A stretch of DNA of 35,173 bases from an uncultured bacterium (lineage in GTDB: Bacteria > Acidobacteriota > Thermoanaerobaculia > Thermoanaerobaculales > Thermoanaerobaculaceae), in assembly GCA_937924755.1 (NCBI GenBank), contig CALEVZ010000010.1, positions 1 through 35,173 on the forward strand, in the 5' to 3' direction. Of this stretch, positions 7,972-12,802 are shown piece after piece (within the stretch, counting starts at the first letter, position 1; each line of letters opens with the position of its first letter). Both the position numbers and the translations under genes were made by a program. Under the pieces are notes generated by a model. That model ran no database searches. It saw only the letters and a list, made by a program, of their open reading frames with translations, and was not told where the DNA came from.

Positions 7972-8769
7972 CTAGTTCCCCCGCAGGCGGGGCAACTCGC
8001 GCCAACTGGCCCACTTTCCAAAGGCCGCTTCGAATTCGGGGTCGAGGGGCGCTGCAGGTTTCCCTTCGTCGTCCTCGTTGGCGGTGGCGTGGCGCAGCCG
8101 TTCTATTTTGCAGCCCGTACACGGCGCGATGTCGGGCAGCTGCAACAGGCGGGCCATCTCGTCGGGGATGGCGCGTGCCATGCTCGCGTCGCCGAGGCGG
8201 GGAAACGCCTGCCGGATTTTCTGCAGCAACGCAACCAGCTCGGGCTCCGCGGTGCGCAACACCTCGCTCCCCTTGCCGGTGGGGAAGGCGTCGGAGGATT
8301 CCGGGGTGAGGCGCAGGGAGCGCGTTTCAAACCTGATCAACGGGTTGGCGCCATCCTTCTCGTCGACGGCTCTGACGGCCCCGTAGCCAGGGCCGGTAGT
8401 CCTCTGCCGGGCGGTGAGCAGGACCCAAGTGCCCTCGTTGGCGTCCACCATCAACGTCTGCACGAGGGCGAACTTTGGGTTCCGGTAGTCCCCGACGGAG
8501 TAGAAAGCCACCTTGGTGCCATCGACGAAGCGCACGAGGATGCGGTGAAAATCTTCCTTCGCCCGCTCGCGTGCGGACTCGTCGAGGACCAGGCGGGAGG
8601 AAGAACACACCTGCGCCACCTCCCGCTCGCCCTGGCGCAACTGAAAGAGCTGCTCCATGCGGACGGGCTTCGTCTTGTCGATGAGCGGCTTGGGGCGCGG
8701 CGTCGGAGTGCCTCCCAGGGCCAGCGCCGCCGCCGCCATCCAGCTCACGCCCGTTATGACCCAGGCCAT
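7972..8769 (-). CDS. Exported protein of unknown function (second gene of first Cys-rich cassette)
   Basis: A 265-residue protein not recognised as a known family. It begins with a short signal peptide (hydrophobic to about residue 19, GVSWMAAAALALGG). The mature part is mixed polar sequence: TKVAFYSVGDYRNPKF and GTWVLLTARQR look like beta strands, the region from about 165 to 215 is helical, and CTGC near residue 223 could bind metal or form a disulfide. A ribosome site AAGGAG lies 6 nt before the ATG. It follows the 84-residue Cys-rich gene by 15 nt on the same strand, so the two are almost surely one transcript. Its 3' end faces the tandem lyase gene with an 8-nt gap. Confidence 0.75.
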   Translation of the reverse strand: MAWVITGVSWMAAAALALGGTPTPRPKPLIDKTKPVRMEQLFQLRQGEREVAQVCSSSRLVLDESARERAKEDFHRILVRFVDGTKVAFYSVGDYRNPKFALVQTLMVDANEGTWVLLTARQRTTGPGYGAVRAVDEKDGANPLIRFETRSLRLTPESSDAFPTGKGSEVLRTAEPELVALLQKIRQAFPRLGDASMARAIPDEMARLLQLPDIAPCTGCKIERLRHATANEDDEGKPAAPLDPEFEAAFGKWASWRELPRLRGN

Positions 8770-8784
8770 GATTGCTCCTTTCCC

Positions 8785-9039
8785 TCAGCTGCACCAGTCA
8801 GTGAGACAATGACCACTACACGCGGAGTACTCGGTCAGGGCCACGTGGTAGTTCCTGCCCCGCAAGACCCGACAGTCGAAAATCATGGTACAGCAGCCCT
8901 GGCAGGAACCGCACGAGGATGCCTGCGAGGTGCAGGGCTCGCTGGGGTCCCAACCGCCCCAGCAATCCCAGGCCCCGGCCTCAGCGCTGCCCACGACCAC
9001 CGCCACGACCGCCAACGCAATTCCGATTCCTCGACGCAT
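8785..9039 (-). CDS. Small exported cysteine-rich protein (first cassette)
   Basis: An 84-residue protein with an N-terminal signal peptide (RR n-region, GIALAVVAVVVGSAEAG core, cleavage likely after AEA) and a mature part of about 62 residues holding ten cysteines: DCWGG, PCTSQASSC, SCQGCC, DC, ACSGHC, DWC. The even number of cysteines suggests several disulfides after export. A ribosome site AGGAG lies 6 nt before the ATG. It is not recognised as a known family. A similar arrangement (Cys-rich small protein, then a larger exported protein, same leader upstream) recurs at 9455-10905. Toxin-, adhesin- or structural-peptide roles are all open. Confidence 0.7.
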   Translation of the reverse strand: MRRGIGIALAVVAVVVGSAEAGAWDCWGGWDPSEPCTSQASSCGSCQGCCTMIFDCRVLRGRNYHVALTEYSACSGHCLTDWCS

Positions 9040-9085: not shown

Positions 9086-9312
9086 ATTCTCTCTCTCTCT
9101 TGTCAAGCCCCCGCGTCGCCTCCCCCTCCTAAGGCGAGGATTTGGGTTGCCTCATCAAAAATCTCCCCGACCGCGGATCGTTGCCTCACGGGAGAATCCG
9201 CCTGAGAGTGTGGATAGCGGTACCTGGCGCTGAGCTTCAAGACCGGTCAGGGGCGCCGCCAAGGACACAGACGCGGGCACAGACACCGGGGCTGACACGA
9301 GCACGGTCACGG
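9086..9312 (-). repeat. Leader repeat, copy 1 (upstream of the 84-residue gene)
   Basis: This stretch is repeated at 10934-11170. From the TGTCAA at 9101 to 9312 the copies differ at five of 212 positions by direct comparison; the only indel is in the adjacent GA/CT tract (13 nt of alternating sequence here, 23 nt in copy 2). Read on the minus strand, the direction of the genes it precedes, it ends in TTGACA, then (GA)n, then GAGAAT. The far part (about 9262-9312) is a low-complexity run of GACAC/CACGG-like units. No coding potential seen. The rest of the gene gap, 9313-9454, holds nothing I recognise. Confidence 0.9.
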
Positions 9313-9454
9313 AGGTTGCGGTGGCGGCGCGCTGCCGGTGCCCCTTCACTCCCCGTCGGTGGACGTGGTGTCCATCACTGCCGCGACCGGCGCCAGCTAC
9401 GCGTCGGTGGCTGGGTTCCCCCGCTCATGACGCTGTTGGGGACGAATCGAGCGC

Positions 9455-10480
9455 CTACCTGATCGCCCTGCCCATCGCCTTGATGACCTCCTTGAGCGGC
9501 CCGTCGAGCTGTGGCGGCTCCCAGTCCTCGCGTCCGAACAGCTCGCGCGCCACGGCGGCGTCGGGGCGGGTGAAGGTGCGGGGGAGCGGCCCGGGGGTGA
9601 GCCTGGTGAGCACTTGTCCCTCCACGAGTCCCACGGGGTTGTCGCCAAGCTCCTCGGGCCAGGCGTCCTCCGTGCCGTAGAGAAAAAGGGCCCCGCCGAT
9701 CTCGCCCGGGTTGGCGCCGGTGCGGGACAAAAGCCCAAGCAGGGGACCGAAGGCGCGGCGATCCTCGGGCGCCAGCCGCGACCAGGCGTCGGCGACGGTT
9801 CCGGGCGGGCACTGCCCGGGGCAGCCGGGCAGGTAGAGGCCGTTGACGTCGGTCAGACGGATTCTCCCCTTTTCCAGGCGCTGGTGGCCCTTCTTCGTGA
9901 ACTGGGCGAGGGCATCCCGGACCGCCCTCGGCAATTCCTCTTCGCTGGTGGCCTGCTCCAGCTCACCGCGGTACGTCTCCAGGAACGCCATGGCGTCCTC
10001 CACCACCTCCTTCGGCTTCGGCGTATAGTCGACGAGGACGAAGTGGGCGCCGGTCAGCGGGTGGTAGGCCACCAGCGCGTACCCGGCCGCGTGGGGGAAG
10101 AGGACGAAGCCGCTGCGAACCACGTCGTCCCCGCAGGCGACGCGAAGCTGCTGGTAGGTCACCACGCGCCCCGCCAGCGGGGCGAACCCCTTCCTGCTGG
10201 GTGGCTGGCCGAACTGCAAGTAGCGCACGAGCAAAGGCCCCTGGACGTTCCGCACGTCGCCGCCCTCCCAGCGCTGCTCGATTTCCTTGAGCAGGCTCGT
10301 GAGTTCCTGGCGCTCGGGGTCGGCGAGGAGCCGCGGGTCGATCGCGGAGCCAGCCCACATGGCCAGCGAGCAACGCCTCCCGTCGGCGGTCTTGAATTCA
10401 CCGGTCGCCACCACGCCCGGGTAGGGCAGCACCCCCGCCGTAGCGTGGGCGGCGACGAAGAGCAGGACGAGGATTATCAT
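9455..10480 (-). CDS. Exported protein of unknown function (second gene of second Cys-rich cassette)
   Basis: A 341-residue protein not recognised as a known family. It starts with a signal peptide (MIILVLLFVAAHATA, cleavage after ATA). The mature part includes QRWEGGDVRNVQGPLLVRYL, a beta-like stretch AGYALVAYHPLTGAHFVLVDY, a charged helical segment around residues 185-230 and a cysteine pair in LPGCPGQCPPG. The longer open frame upstream is not used: the ATG at 10480 has GGAGGAG 5 nt before it and overlaps the stop of the 142-residue gene (ATGA), which suggests translational coupling. Position and export match the 265-residue protein of the first cassette, but I see no clear sequence similarity between them. 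Confidence 0.75.
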   Translation of the reverse strand: MIILVLLFVAAHATAGVLPYPGVVATGEFKTADGRRCSLAMWAGSAIDPRLLADPERQELTSLLKEIEQRWEGGDVRNVQGPLLVRYLQFGQPPSRKGFAPLAGRVVTYQQLRVACGDDVVRSGFVLFPHAAGYALVAYHPLTGAHFVLVDYTPKPKEVVEDAMAFLETYRGELEQATSEEELPRAVRDALAQFTKKGHQRLEKGRIRLTDVNGLYLPGCPGQCPPGTVADAWSRLAPEDRRAFGPLLGLLSRTGANPGEIGGALFLYGTEDAWPEELGDNPVGLVEGQVLTRLTPGPLPRTFTRPDAAVARELFGREDWEPPQLDGPLKEVIKAMGRAIR

Positions 10481-10905
10481 GGCATCTCCTCCCCTTGGAG
10501 GCCGCTGCGTTGCAGGCAGAAGCATAACCCGGACGGGTCGTCGGTCAAACAGTTGATCTCGCAGATTTCCCAGGACAGCTCGGCCGCCTGAAGACACGCG
10601 GCCACACAGGTGGGGCTGCCAAGGCGGAGAAAAATCCGATACCACCAGCTTCTGCACGTGCGCAGTGCGTCCTGAAGCTGGACGCAGCAGTCGTTGCAGC
10701 AGGAGATGCACGGGTCGTTGCCCATCACGATGCGGCAGGAAACGTCGGTGCGCCCCTCGGCAGGAAACAGGAGCGCCACGGCGAACACCGCAACCGTCAT
10801 CGCCGCTTTGACCCGGTGTTGGATCGTGGCCGACGTGCGATTTCGGGTTCGATACGGCTGCCGAGCCGATTGTCGCGTGGATCCCCGTGGTCGTGTCCAG
10901 TTCAT
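10477..10905 (-). CDS. Small exported cysteine-rich protein (second cassette)
   Basis: A 142-residue protein with a long basic N-terminus (about 34 residues), a hydrophobic signal core (MTVAVFAVALLFPAEG at about 36-51) and a mature part with thirteen cysteines: SC, PCISCCNDCC, RTC, TCVAAC, EICEINC, LCFC. GGAGGAG lies 4 nt before the ATG at 10905. A later ATG at codon 36 would give a conventional signal peptide but has no good ribosome site. It is not a recognised family. PC followed by SC/CC clusters recalls the 84-residue protein at 8785, so distant relationship is possible. The stop overlaps the next gene by 4 nt, so the pair is one unit. Confidence 0.7.
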   Translation of the reverse strand: MNWTRPRGSTRQSARQPYRTRNRTSATIQHRVKAAMTVAVFAVALLFPAEGRTDVSCRIVMGNDPCISCCNDCCVQLQDALRTCRSWWYRIFLRLGSPTCVAACLQAAELSWEICEINCLTDDPSGLCFCLQRSGLQGEEMP

Positions 10906-10933
10906 TGGTCTCCTCCGACGGATGTTTCCAGGG

Positions 10934-10964
10934 ATTCTCTCTCTCTCTCTCTCTCTCTTGTCAA
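10934..10964 (-). promoter_or_regulatory. Candidate promoter with (GA)n spacer
   Basis: On the minus strand TTGACA (10964-10959) is followed by GA dinucleotides and then GAGAAT (10939-10934), which keeps the two most important -10 bases (A2 and T6). The spacer is 19 nt here. In copy 1 (9106-9086) the same boxes are only 9 nt apart because the tract is five GA units shorter. The ATG of the 142-residue gene lies 28 nt past the -10 box. Known: dinucleotide tracts between -35 and -10 can switch promoters by slippage. Whether this is an active promoter is inferred. Confidence 0.4.
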
Positions 10965-11170
10965 GCCCCCGCGTCGCCTCCCCCTCCTAAGGCGAGGATT
11001 TGGGTTGCCTCATCAAAAATCTCCCCGACCGGGGATCGTTGCCTCACGGGAGAATCCGCCTGAGAGTGTGGATAGCGGTACCTGGCGCTAAGCTTCAAGA
11101 CCGGTCAGGGGCGCCGCCAAGGACACACACGCGGGCACAGACACCGGGACGGACACGAGCACGGTCACGG
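10934..11170 (-). repeat. Leader repeat, copy 2 (upstream of the 142-residue gene)
   Basis: The second copy of the element at 9086-9312, in the same orientation and placed the same way relative to its downstream gene pair. Differences from copy 1 are five substitutions and 10 extra nt in the GA/CT tract (alternating 10936-10958). Bases 11171-11221 continue the GACAC/CACGG low-complexity sequence and then meet the stop of the next minus-strand gene. The element is non-coding as far as I can see. Confidence 0.9.
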
Positions 11171-11221: not shown

Positions 11222-12802
11222 CTATTGCAGGGGGTACTCGCACCCCGGCTGGGGGATGTCGACTCGGGCGAAGCCGGCCTGGCGCAGGGCGGCGGCCAGG
11301 GCCTGGAGGGCGGCGGGCTCCCCGTGGTTGAGGAGGATGCGGCTGGAGCGGTTGTGGGAGAGCAGGCGCAGCAGGTCCCGCTGGTCGGCGTGGCCGGAGA
11401 AGACGTCGTACCGGCGCCAGGTGGCCCGCACCGGGACGCTCCTGCCCCCCCAGCGCAGGGGGTTCTGGCCGGCCAGCAGCCTGCCCCCCGGGGTGGCCGG
11501 GTCCTGGTAGGAGACGATGGCGAGGAAAACGTCCTCCCGGGGCAGCAGGCGAGGCAGGAGGTCGGCGCTTGTCCCCACGTGCATCATGCCGCTGGCGGTA
11601 ACCAGCACCGCCGGGCCGCGCAGCTCCTCGGCGCGGGGCAGCTCCTCCCGGTACGGAGGGAAGAGGGCCTTGCCCGCCAGGGAGGGCAGGAAGTCCCGGC
11701 AGTGGTGCCGGCCCGCCGCCAGCTCCTCCCACAGGCGGCAGGCGGCGCGGGCGGTGGGGGAGGGGACGTACACCGGTACCCGGGGCAGACGCCCCTCCCG
11801 CATGCCTTGCTCCAGGAGGTGCAGCACCTTCTGGGTGCGGTCCAGGACCAGGGCGGGGATCCACACCAGCCGCCCCGCCGCCAGGGCCCCCGCCAGGTCG
11901 GTGTGGAACTGCTCCACCTGCGGGGCGTAGGGGCGCGGCCGCACGGCGGCCCCGTAAGTGCTTTCCACCACCACGACCTGGGCGGGGGGCAGGGGCTCGG
12001 GGGCGCGGTAGAGCAACTGGATGTCGTTACCCACGTCCCCCGAGACGAGCAACGAGACGCTCCGGGTGGCGTCCTTGAGGAGCACCGCGGCGGAGCCGGG
12101 GAGATGGTGGGTGGGGTGGAACGACGCCTCCACCCCGGGGGCCGGGCGAAAGACCTGCCCCGGAGGCACCCCCCGGACGAGGCGCAGCAGCTCGTCCCGC
12201 TCCTCCTCGGCGCAGCTTCGGCAGGGGTAGGCCTCCACCCCCCGGTGGCGCAGCCGTTCCTGGAGGGCGCACAGGGACCCCGCCTCCTCCCGCCGACGGC
12301 GGATGGCGCTGCCTGCGGGGCAGGCGCGCCAGTGCAGGGCCACCGCCCGGCGTTCCCCTTCGCCCCGCGCGCTCCAGTAGAAGCGGCGCGGGTGGGGGTC
12401 GAAGCGAACGATGTTGTAGAGGGCCAGCCGGGCCACGGCGGCGGTGGCGGGGGTGGTGTACACCGGCCCGGTGAAACCCGCGGCCACCAGGTCCGGCAGG
12501 CGCCCCAGGTGGTCGGCGTGGGCGTGGGTGAGGAAGACGGCAGCCACCCGTTCCGGCTGTGGCGGAAGCCGACGCTGGCGAGGCTGGTCACACCCGTCGC
12601 CTTCATCCCCCGCCTGACCCAGCTGGGTGCCGCAGTCCACCAGGAAGCGCTGTCCCTGCAGCTGCACCTCGATGCAGGAGCCCCCCACCTCCTGGGCGCC
12701 GCCGTAAAAGCGCAGCGCCGGCACCTCGCCGCCGGTGGCCGGGTCGGCGGGGGGGAGCGCCAGGGCCAGCAGGAGGGCGACGAGGTGGGGGCGAGGGAGC
12801 AT
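11222..12802 (-). CDS. Beta-CASP metallo-beta-lactamase-fold protein with predicted signal peptide
   Basis: A 526-residue MBL-fold hydrolase of the RNA-processing beta-CASP branch. Motif 2 is THAHADHLG (H93, H95, D97, H98), motif 3 the His of THHLPGSA (H233), motif 4 the Asp of VSGDVG (D256). Beta-CASP marks follow: A in VVVESTYG (E280), B in FSGHADQRDLL (H471), C in LNHGEP (H493). Relatives are RNA endo- or exonucleases. Two oddities: residues 1-24 (LVALLLALALPPADPA) look like an export signal, unexpected for an RNA enzyme, and residues about 158-215 are an insert with four cysteines (RACP, SLC, CRSC). The ATG at 12802 was chosen because an upstream start at 12868 would leave almost no space to the divergent acs gene. 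Confidence 0.85.
   Translation of the reverse strand: MLPRPHLVALLLALALPPADPATGGEVPALRFYGGAQEVGGSCIEVQLQGQRFLVDCGTQLGQAGDEGDGCDQPRQRRLPPQPERVAAVFLTHAHADHLGRLPDLVAAGFTGPVYTTPATAAVARLALYNIVRFDPHPRRFYWSARGEGERRAVALHWRACPAGSAIRRRREEAGSLCALQERLRHRGVEAYPCRSCAEEERDELLRLVRGVPPGQVFRPAPGVEASFHPTHHLPGSAAVLLKDATRSVSLLVSGDVGNDIQLLYRAPEPLPPAQVVVVESTYGAAVRPRPYAPQVEQFHTDLAGALAAGRLVWIPALVLDRTQKVLHLLEQGMREGRLPRVPVYVPSPTARAACRLWEELAAGRHHCRDFLPSLAGKALFPPYREELPRAEELRGPAVLVTASGMMHVGTSADLLPRLLPREDVFLAIVSYQDPATPGGRLLAGQNPLRWGGRSVPVRATWRRYDVFSGHADQRDLLRLLSHNRSSRILLNHGEPAALQALAAALRQAGFARVDIPQPGCEYPLQ

Follow-up and report, generated by a model that had tools for sequence, protein, structure and literature searches.

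How did two non-coding stretches of about 0.2 kb come to be almost identical while the genes next to them are not? This question was raised by a 35,173-nucleotide stretch of DNA (here called the window, meaning the whole stretch that was analysed) from an uncultured bacterium of the Thermoanaerobaculaceae.

The repeat pair and the genes behind it

A repeat search of the whole window identified a direct-repeat pair, 9088-9312 and 10946-11170, of 225 nt and 98% identity. It was the sole long direct repeat in the window; the next families measured 45 and 40 nt, with 73-75% identity. The two copies lie next to each other, point the same way and are offset by 1858 bp. When they were aligned, 5 substitutions were found, and length differed solely in a CT run (GA on the minus strand); the near-identity over 0.2 kb, with five substitutions and one indel, that a sequence-only reading had described was thus borne out. 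The same reading took the segments to be leaders before unrelated genes. The larger proteins of the two gene pairs indeed lack homology (P0002 versus P0004, best E 0.12), but the orientation is the reverse of that assumed: the genes lie on the minus rather than the plus strand, and the copies are to be read on the minus strand, 5' of the pairs. In that direction, the order is a degenerate GACACGG-type repeat, two TGAGGCAAC motifs 34 bp apart (the repeat core), GGGGC, TTGACA and a (GA)n tract. The features are as follows.

9088..9312, minus: repeat copy 1, upstream region of operon 1, with GACACGG-type repeat, putative insertion sequence (IS) end, -35-like TTGACA and start of the GA tract
10946..11170, minus: repeat copy 2, upstream region of operon 2, from repeat search and alignment
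9243..9312 (copy 2, 11101-11170), minus: degenerate GACACGG-type intergenic repeat, far border of the unit; query positions 158-227 match contigs C28, C13, C5 and C63
9112..9188, minus: putative decayed IS end, copy 1; TGAGGCAAC motifs 9180-9188 and 9146-9154, degenerate third motif 9112-9122
10970..11046, minus: putative decayed IS end, copy 2; motifs 11038-11046, 11004-11012 and 10970-10980
9107..9111 (copy 2, 10965-10969), minus: GGGGC, at the presumed position of the 5-bp target duplication of the IS; partner duplication not preserved
9086..9106, minus: promoter-like site of operon 1, TTGACA (9101-9106) plus GA tract ending in GAGAAT
10934..10964, minus: promoter-like site of operon 2, TTGACA (10959-10964) plus a longer GA tract ending in GAGAAT, which holds the recombination junction
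8785..9039, minus: operon 1 gene 1, Cys-rich protein of 84 aa whose start resembles a signal peptide; 34% identical to its paralogue at C30:23863
7972..8769, minus: operon 1 gene 2, 265-aa protein of no known family; 24% identity to the C30 partner
10477..10905, minus: operon 2 gene 1, Cys-rich protein of 142 aa when counted from the first ATG; within the C21 homology
9455..10480, minus: operon 2 gene 2, 341-aa protein of no known family; 63% and 55% identity to the C21 partner in two stretches

In both pairs, a small Cys-rich protein with a signal-peptide-like start is followed by a larger protein, and protein-family searches matched no known family to the window's own pairs. Paralogues of both pairs exist at other places in the genome, that of operon 1 at C30:23863 and that of operon 2 at C21:23182. 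Further along the window (11222-12802, minus strand), an MBL-fold/beta-CASP/RMMBL protein was also seen to have a signal-peptide-like start, which is unusual for this family of RNA-processing enzymes.

A search for the leader in the genome and its relatives, as the sequence-only reading had proposed, returned partial matches to separate modules but no further full copy of the 225-nt unit in the own genome (G000) or in 39 relatives. The modules also occur singly. Within the own genome, the far border resembles dispersed GACACGG-type intergenic repeats on C13, C5 and C63, the core has counterparts on C51 and C1, and the TTGACA-GA border on C26, C20, C30 and C12. In the relatives it is chiefly the core that recurs, with several copies per genome in G005 and G006. 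The degenerate GACACGG-type repeats are themselves a dispersed group (C13:10575, C5:141164 and C63:16046, besides the window copies), and are also present in G020.

When the extracted operon 2 segment was compared with its paralogues, positions 331-555 were 97.8% identical to operon 1, whereas from position 556 on the segment was 76-78% identical to the operon at C21:23182. The junction, 555/556, falls inside the GA tract (segment positions 537-567). The sequence upstream of the C21 operon differs, being of the CCCACTTTCGAGGGG-TTGACG kind. Operon 2 is, by these alignments, evidently a hybrid with an operon 1-like upstream half and a C21-type downstream half, joined in a microsatellite. Because the coding part of operon 2 is C21-type and operon 1 belongs with its C30:23863 relatives, the near-identical cassette stands before pairs of different descent. 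Either operon may have been the donor.

Of the origins proposed in the sequence-only reading, duplication or gene conversion gained support as exchange or conversion of a non-coding cassette between different pairs, with its junction inside the GA tract. Had one operon simply been duplicated in tandem not long ago, one of its coding copies then decaying, the copies would be expected side by side and in like orientation, as they are at a spacing of 1858 bp; but the larger proteins share no homology, operon 1 resembles C30:23863, and operon 2 past the GA tract is 76-78% identical to C21. This outcome, which the earlier reading had named as its own refutation, is excluded by the relation of the operon 2 coding part to C21 and not to operon 1, unless the C21 operon derived from operon 2 after the event, and we regard it as very improbable. 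The strong conservation of a non-coding stretch would also be expected of a structured RNA leader, another of the proposed origins. No Rfam family was matched, though, folding stability was not in excess on either strand (z-scores +1.1, +1.0 and -0.4), and the conserved part lies upstream of the presumed promoter; a leader RNA is, in our view, very improbable. The mobile element that had been suggested found support as one component, since the conserved core appears to be an IS end.

The motif array of the repeat core

Core copies in G005 and G006 are alike over ~100-240 bp, and the likeness stops sharply just past the outer motif. In two relatives, complete elements of ~1.4-1.5 kb were found, with inverted ends around an rve transposase gene; in the own genome, contig C16 carries a decayed transposase beside such an IS end. 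The complete relatives have inverted ends, an rve transposase and matching 5-bp duplications in 6/6 cases, as expected of insertion sequences. The window copies retain one end only, with neither partner end nor target duplication, and the motif that adjoins TTGACA is degenerate. This third motif (9112-9122 and 10970-10980) reads GAGGCGAC-GCG, with the tip GAGGCGACGCG, and is followed directly by GGGGC-TTGACA. The resulting GAGGCGACGCG-GGGGC-TTGACA arrangement has the geometry of other promoter-facing IS ends; with the third motif placed before GGGGC-TTGACA, TTGACA therefore lies at the canonical distance from the IS tip.

The transposase of the complete elements (P0005) was 45.8% identical over 97% to proteins annotated as ISBj12/ISNCY. 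Its Pfam match was rve, with no match to a Mutator-type transposase; the NCBIfam IS481 transposase model scored 44.3 bits, below the curated cut-off of 224. The D-D-E set was invariant in the transposase alignment, and the predicted structure (mean pLDDT 77) has an RNase H fold whose nearest matches are retroviral integrase, TnsB and IstA; PDB sequence matches to TAL effectors, which span only ~54 residues, were disregarded. The TGAGGCAA motifs at both ends are shared with the ISBj12-related ISNCY group. Judged from sequence comparison, the motif array is what decay has left of one end of an IS that is related to the ISBj12/ISNCY group and whose transposase is of the rve/DDE type. Because P0005 and its closer relatives are ~400-417 aa long and the elements end at the motif tip, we place the IS in a sister subgroup rather than in ISBj12 itself. 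IS21 ends had been considered for the TGAGGCAAC core and were dropped, the flanked gene being an rve transposase distantly like that of IS481. The TGAGGCAAC-type motifs presumably bind the transposase.

Promoter-like sequence beside IS ends and GA tracts

Thirty flanks of the promoter-facing end, which is the transposase-5' side wherever the gene is visible, were scored for promoter hexamers; most had come from searches with the end sequence itself. At offset 8 (the 3-nt tip plus 5 bp), the match to the -35 hexamer averaged 4.3/6 and was at least 4/6 in 20/30 flanks, whereas the other offsets from 0 to 59 gave means of 0.9-2.0 and counts of 0-5. The best -10 match at 16-18 bp averaged 3.5 vs ~2.0. 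Opposite IS ends showed the promoter signal in 0/9 cases, though they carry the same motifs. An independent set was obtained with the transposase protein across 396 genomes of the phylum and contained 8 readable flanks of the right subgroup, subgroup and readability having been sorted by eye. Six of these eight were promoter-like, with the exact offset in G385, G158, G404 and G151 and a 1-bp displacement in G357 and G348; the flanks in G235 and G259 did not fit the promoter geometry. When both sets were pooled, 27/38 ends reached at least 8/12 in -35 plus -10 at offsets 7-9, compared with 0-1 at control offsets and a mean of 0.62 (maximum 4) in 2000 shuffles.

Moreover, 5-bp duplications that match each other were found at the upstream edge of the hexamer in six complete copies, among them copies from Mycobacterium, Rhodococcus and Paenarthrobacter plasmids. 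No empty site was found in a close relative. These comparisons indicate that the transposase-5' end usually lies one 5-bp target duplication upstream of what appears to be a sigma70-like promoter. In two sister genomes, a conserved element (G404:C63, L153; G224:C9, L154) was seen with both ends facing promoter-like sequence and without matching target duplications.

The GA tracts form a family of their own. About 17 sites in the own genome have TTGAC or TTGAT and then a GA run, many with ATCCCACKTTCGAGGGA just upstream, and most precede a gene pair for two secreted proteins, one small and often Cys-rich, the other larger. The sites on C1, C16 and at C30:18242 are not clearly before such a pair, and the C1 site is interrupted after the promoter. 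CarboxypepD_reg domains, the sole domain family matched, occur in some of the larger partners. Measured from TTGACA to the tract end, the length is 15 to 39 nt and varies between paralogous sites; a sigma70 -10 at 17 bp is absent from most of them, GAGAAT lying mostly far from 17 bp past TTGACA. The TTGACA in the window may act as an active -35, and length-switched expression at the tracts is put forward as a suggestion and no more. Elsewhere among 148 genomes of the class, the pattern was found only in G005 (genus g6), whose one site also lies under an IS end and leads into a two-gene operon, and, as a single weaker match, in G031; three matches in named genomes outside the lineage look like chance and were set aside.

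Several further loci were observed in the course of this survey. At G000:C30:18242-23883 (L073, 3243-8882), four GA-tract promoters stand in tandem; their upstream sequences resemble one another (ATCCCACGTTCGAGGG-TTGACA), and the secreted-protein genes that follow them differ; this array is of the same kind as the pair in the window. At L067 (G000:C1), positions 200-1300, a GA-tract promoter adjoins an IS end, and the first gene is interrupted ~20 codons in by sequence that resembles, by eye, an IS21-type transposase gene in reverse. Near position 1264 of L118 (G006:C40), an IS end and TTGACA are followed by a run of 14-15 A before TATGCT, a homopolymer between -35 and -10.

Fixed spacing from a promoter could equally be the mark of a regulator. 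The TGAGGCAAC pairs would then be operator sites rather than transposon ends, and the operons would share a regulon; an activator site would show fixed -35 spacing in many genes, and tRNA-Met genes in two different genomes do have insertions upstream. Such sites could also be co-opted after IS insertion. The homology, however, covers 100-240 bp on the upstream side, with a sharp limit at the motif; in complete copies, a transposase gene lies between inverted ends, with 5-bp target duplications, and opposite ends carry the same motifs but no promoters, so that operator sites seem improbable. A different objection bears on the general claim: the IS might simply read TTGAC on naked DNA, without recognising promoters as such. 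The TTGACA match is the strongest signal, and in Rhodococcus (L131) the element interrupts an IS256 transposase gene, where the adjacent TTGTTC is unlikely to belong to a promoter. Against this, the -10-like hexamer is enriched too (3.5 vs ~2), even where the -35 is poor; because several poor -35 flanks keep good -10 hexamers (ACGATC/TATACT, TAGCCG/TATGCT and TGTCCA/TACCAT), plain TTGACA recognition is argued against. Naked-DNA recognition is, on balance, less likely than not. We infer that the transposase finds promoters by way of bound RNA polymerase or sigma.

For the window itself, the findings to be explained are the homologies, the junction, the target duplications seen in complete IS copies and the constant spacing from promoter-like sequence. 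In our judgement, they are quite probably due to a single promoter-upstream cassette, with a worn IS end, that is present twice, before two different minus-strand pairs, and was joined at the GA tract. An ISBj12-related (rve/DDE) IS would have landed immediately before the -35 of a (GA)n-tract promoter, as is usual for its group, giving the order IS tip, 5-bp target duplication, TTGACA. Decay would then have left one end of it, in the form of arrayed motifs that resemble transposase sites. Recombination at the GA tract would have passed the cassette (IS end, -35 element and part of the GA tract) between the neighbouring operons and made operon 2 a hybrid, operon 1-like upstream and of the C21-type paralogue downstream.

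Relation to known systems

Oriented insertion at a fixed distance upstream of sigmaA/sigma70 promoters has been described for TnGBS, ISLre2 (p-MULT 3) and some elements of the ISKra4 group (p-MULT 4), all with Mutator-like transposases; for TnGBS and its related IS, the -35 begins 15-17 bp downstream of the insertion point (Guerillot et al. 2014, PMC3942029). Like these, the element here is a DDE element that is oriented and keeps a fixed distance to the promoter (27/38 ends; opposite ends 0/9). Unlike them, it has an rve transposase, and a single 5-bp duplication separates the IS tip from the -35. The IS1202 family (ISAjo2, ISAba71) offers another parallel: its members are ~1.5 kb long, have a 5-bp target duplication and always insert in one orientation, 5 bp from the site bound by the host protein XerC; they have extra transposase sites near the ends, TGT/ACA tips and a dif-like target site (Harmer, Pong and Hall 2023, PMC10132070). 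The IS here likewise has a 5-bp duplication, one orientation and a position beside what may be a protein-bound site. Its target is promoter-like, in contrast to a dif-like site (none was noted by eye in the IS flanks), and the likeness is drawn apart from any comparison of transposases.

The ISBj12/ISNCY elements of Rhizobiales are alike in that their transposase shares ~46% identity with P0005 and that TGAGGCAAC/T motifs lie close to each end. ISBj12 differs in its ~500-aa transposase with a C-terminal extension and in its outer ends and targets. Promoter geometry was not seen in ISBj12 proper of Rhizobiales, and the property is therefore not general to the group.

In some phase-variable promoters, repeat tracts lie next to the -35. 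The sites here resemble them in that a dinucleotide run, variable in length, immediately follows a -35-like hexamer before secreted-protein genes, and differ from them in that most tracts put GAGAAT far from 17 bp after TTGACA.

In the part of the literature covered, no report of this IS group beside promoters was found. The IS here joins promoter targeting with a 5-bp duplication, and its transposase belongs to a third group. It is conceivable, and we hold it tentatively, that a subgroup of rve-type IS, separate from the Mutator-like TnGBS/ISLre2 elements, independently evolved docking on polymerase or sigma, with its transposase-5' end placed one 5-bp staggered cut upstream of the -35. Its remains would mark promoters, in this species including those of a GA-tract, possibly length-switching family that recombines at the tract and shuffles secreted-protein gene pairs.

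Sharing of a promoter region between gene pairs at a microsatellite is seen in the window, and the cassette accounts for a non-coding stretch far better conserved than the adjoining genes. The copying event is of modest interest; the promoter-adjacent habit of the IS group, which is spread over a phylum and occurs in Actinomycetota, is the more general and testable result. Promoter targeting at a different, tighter distance in an rve-type IS suggests that this harmless mode of landing evolved more than once, and the IS ends could serve as promoter markers in uncultured bacteria.
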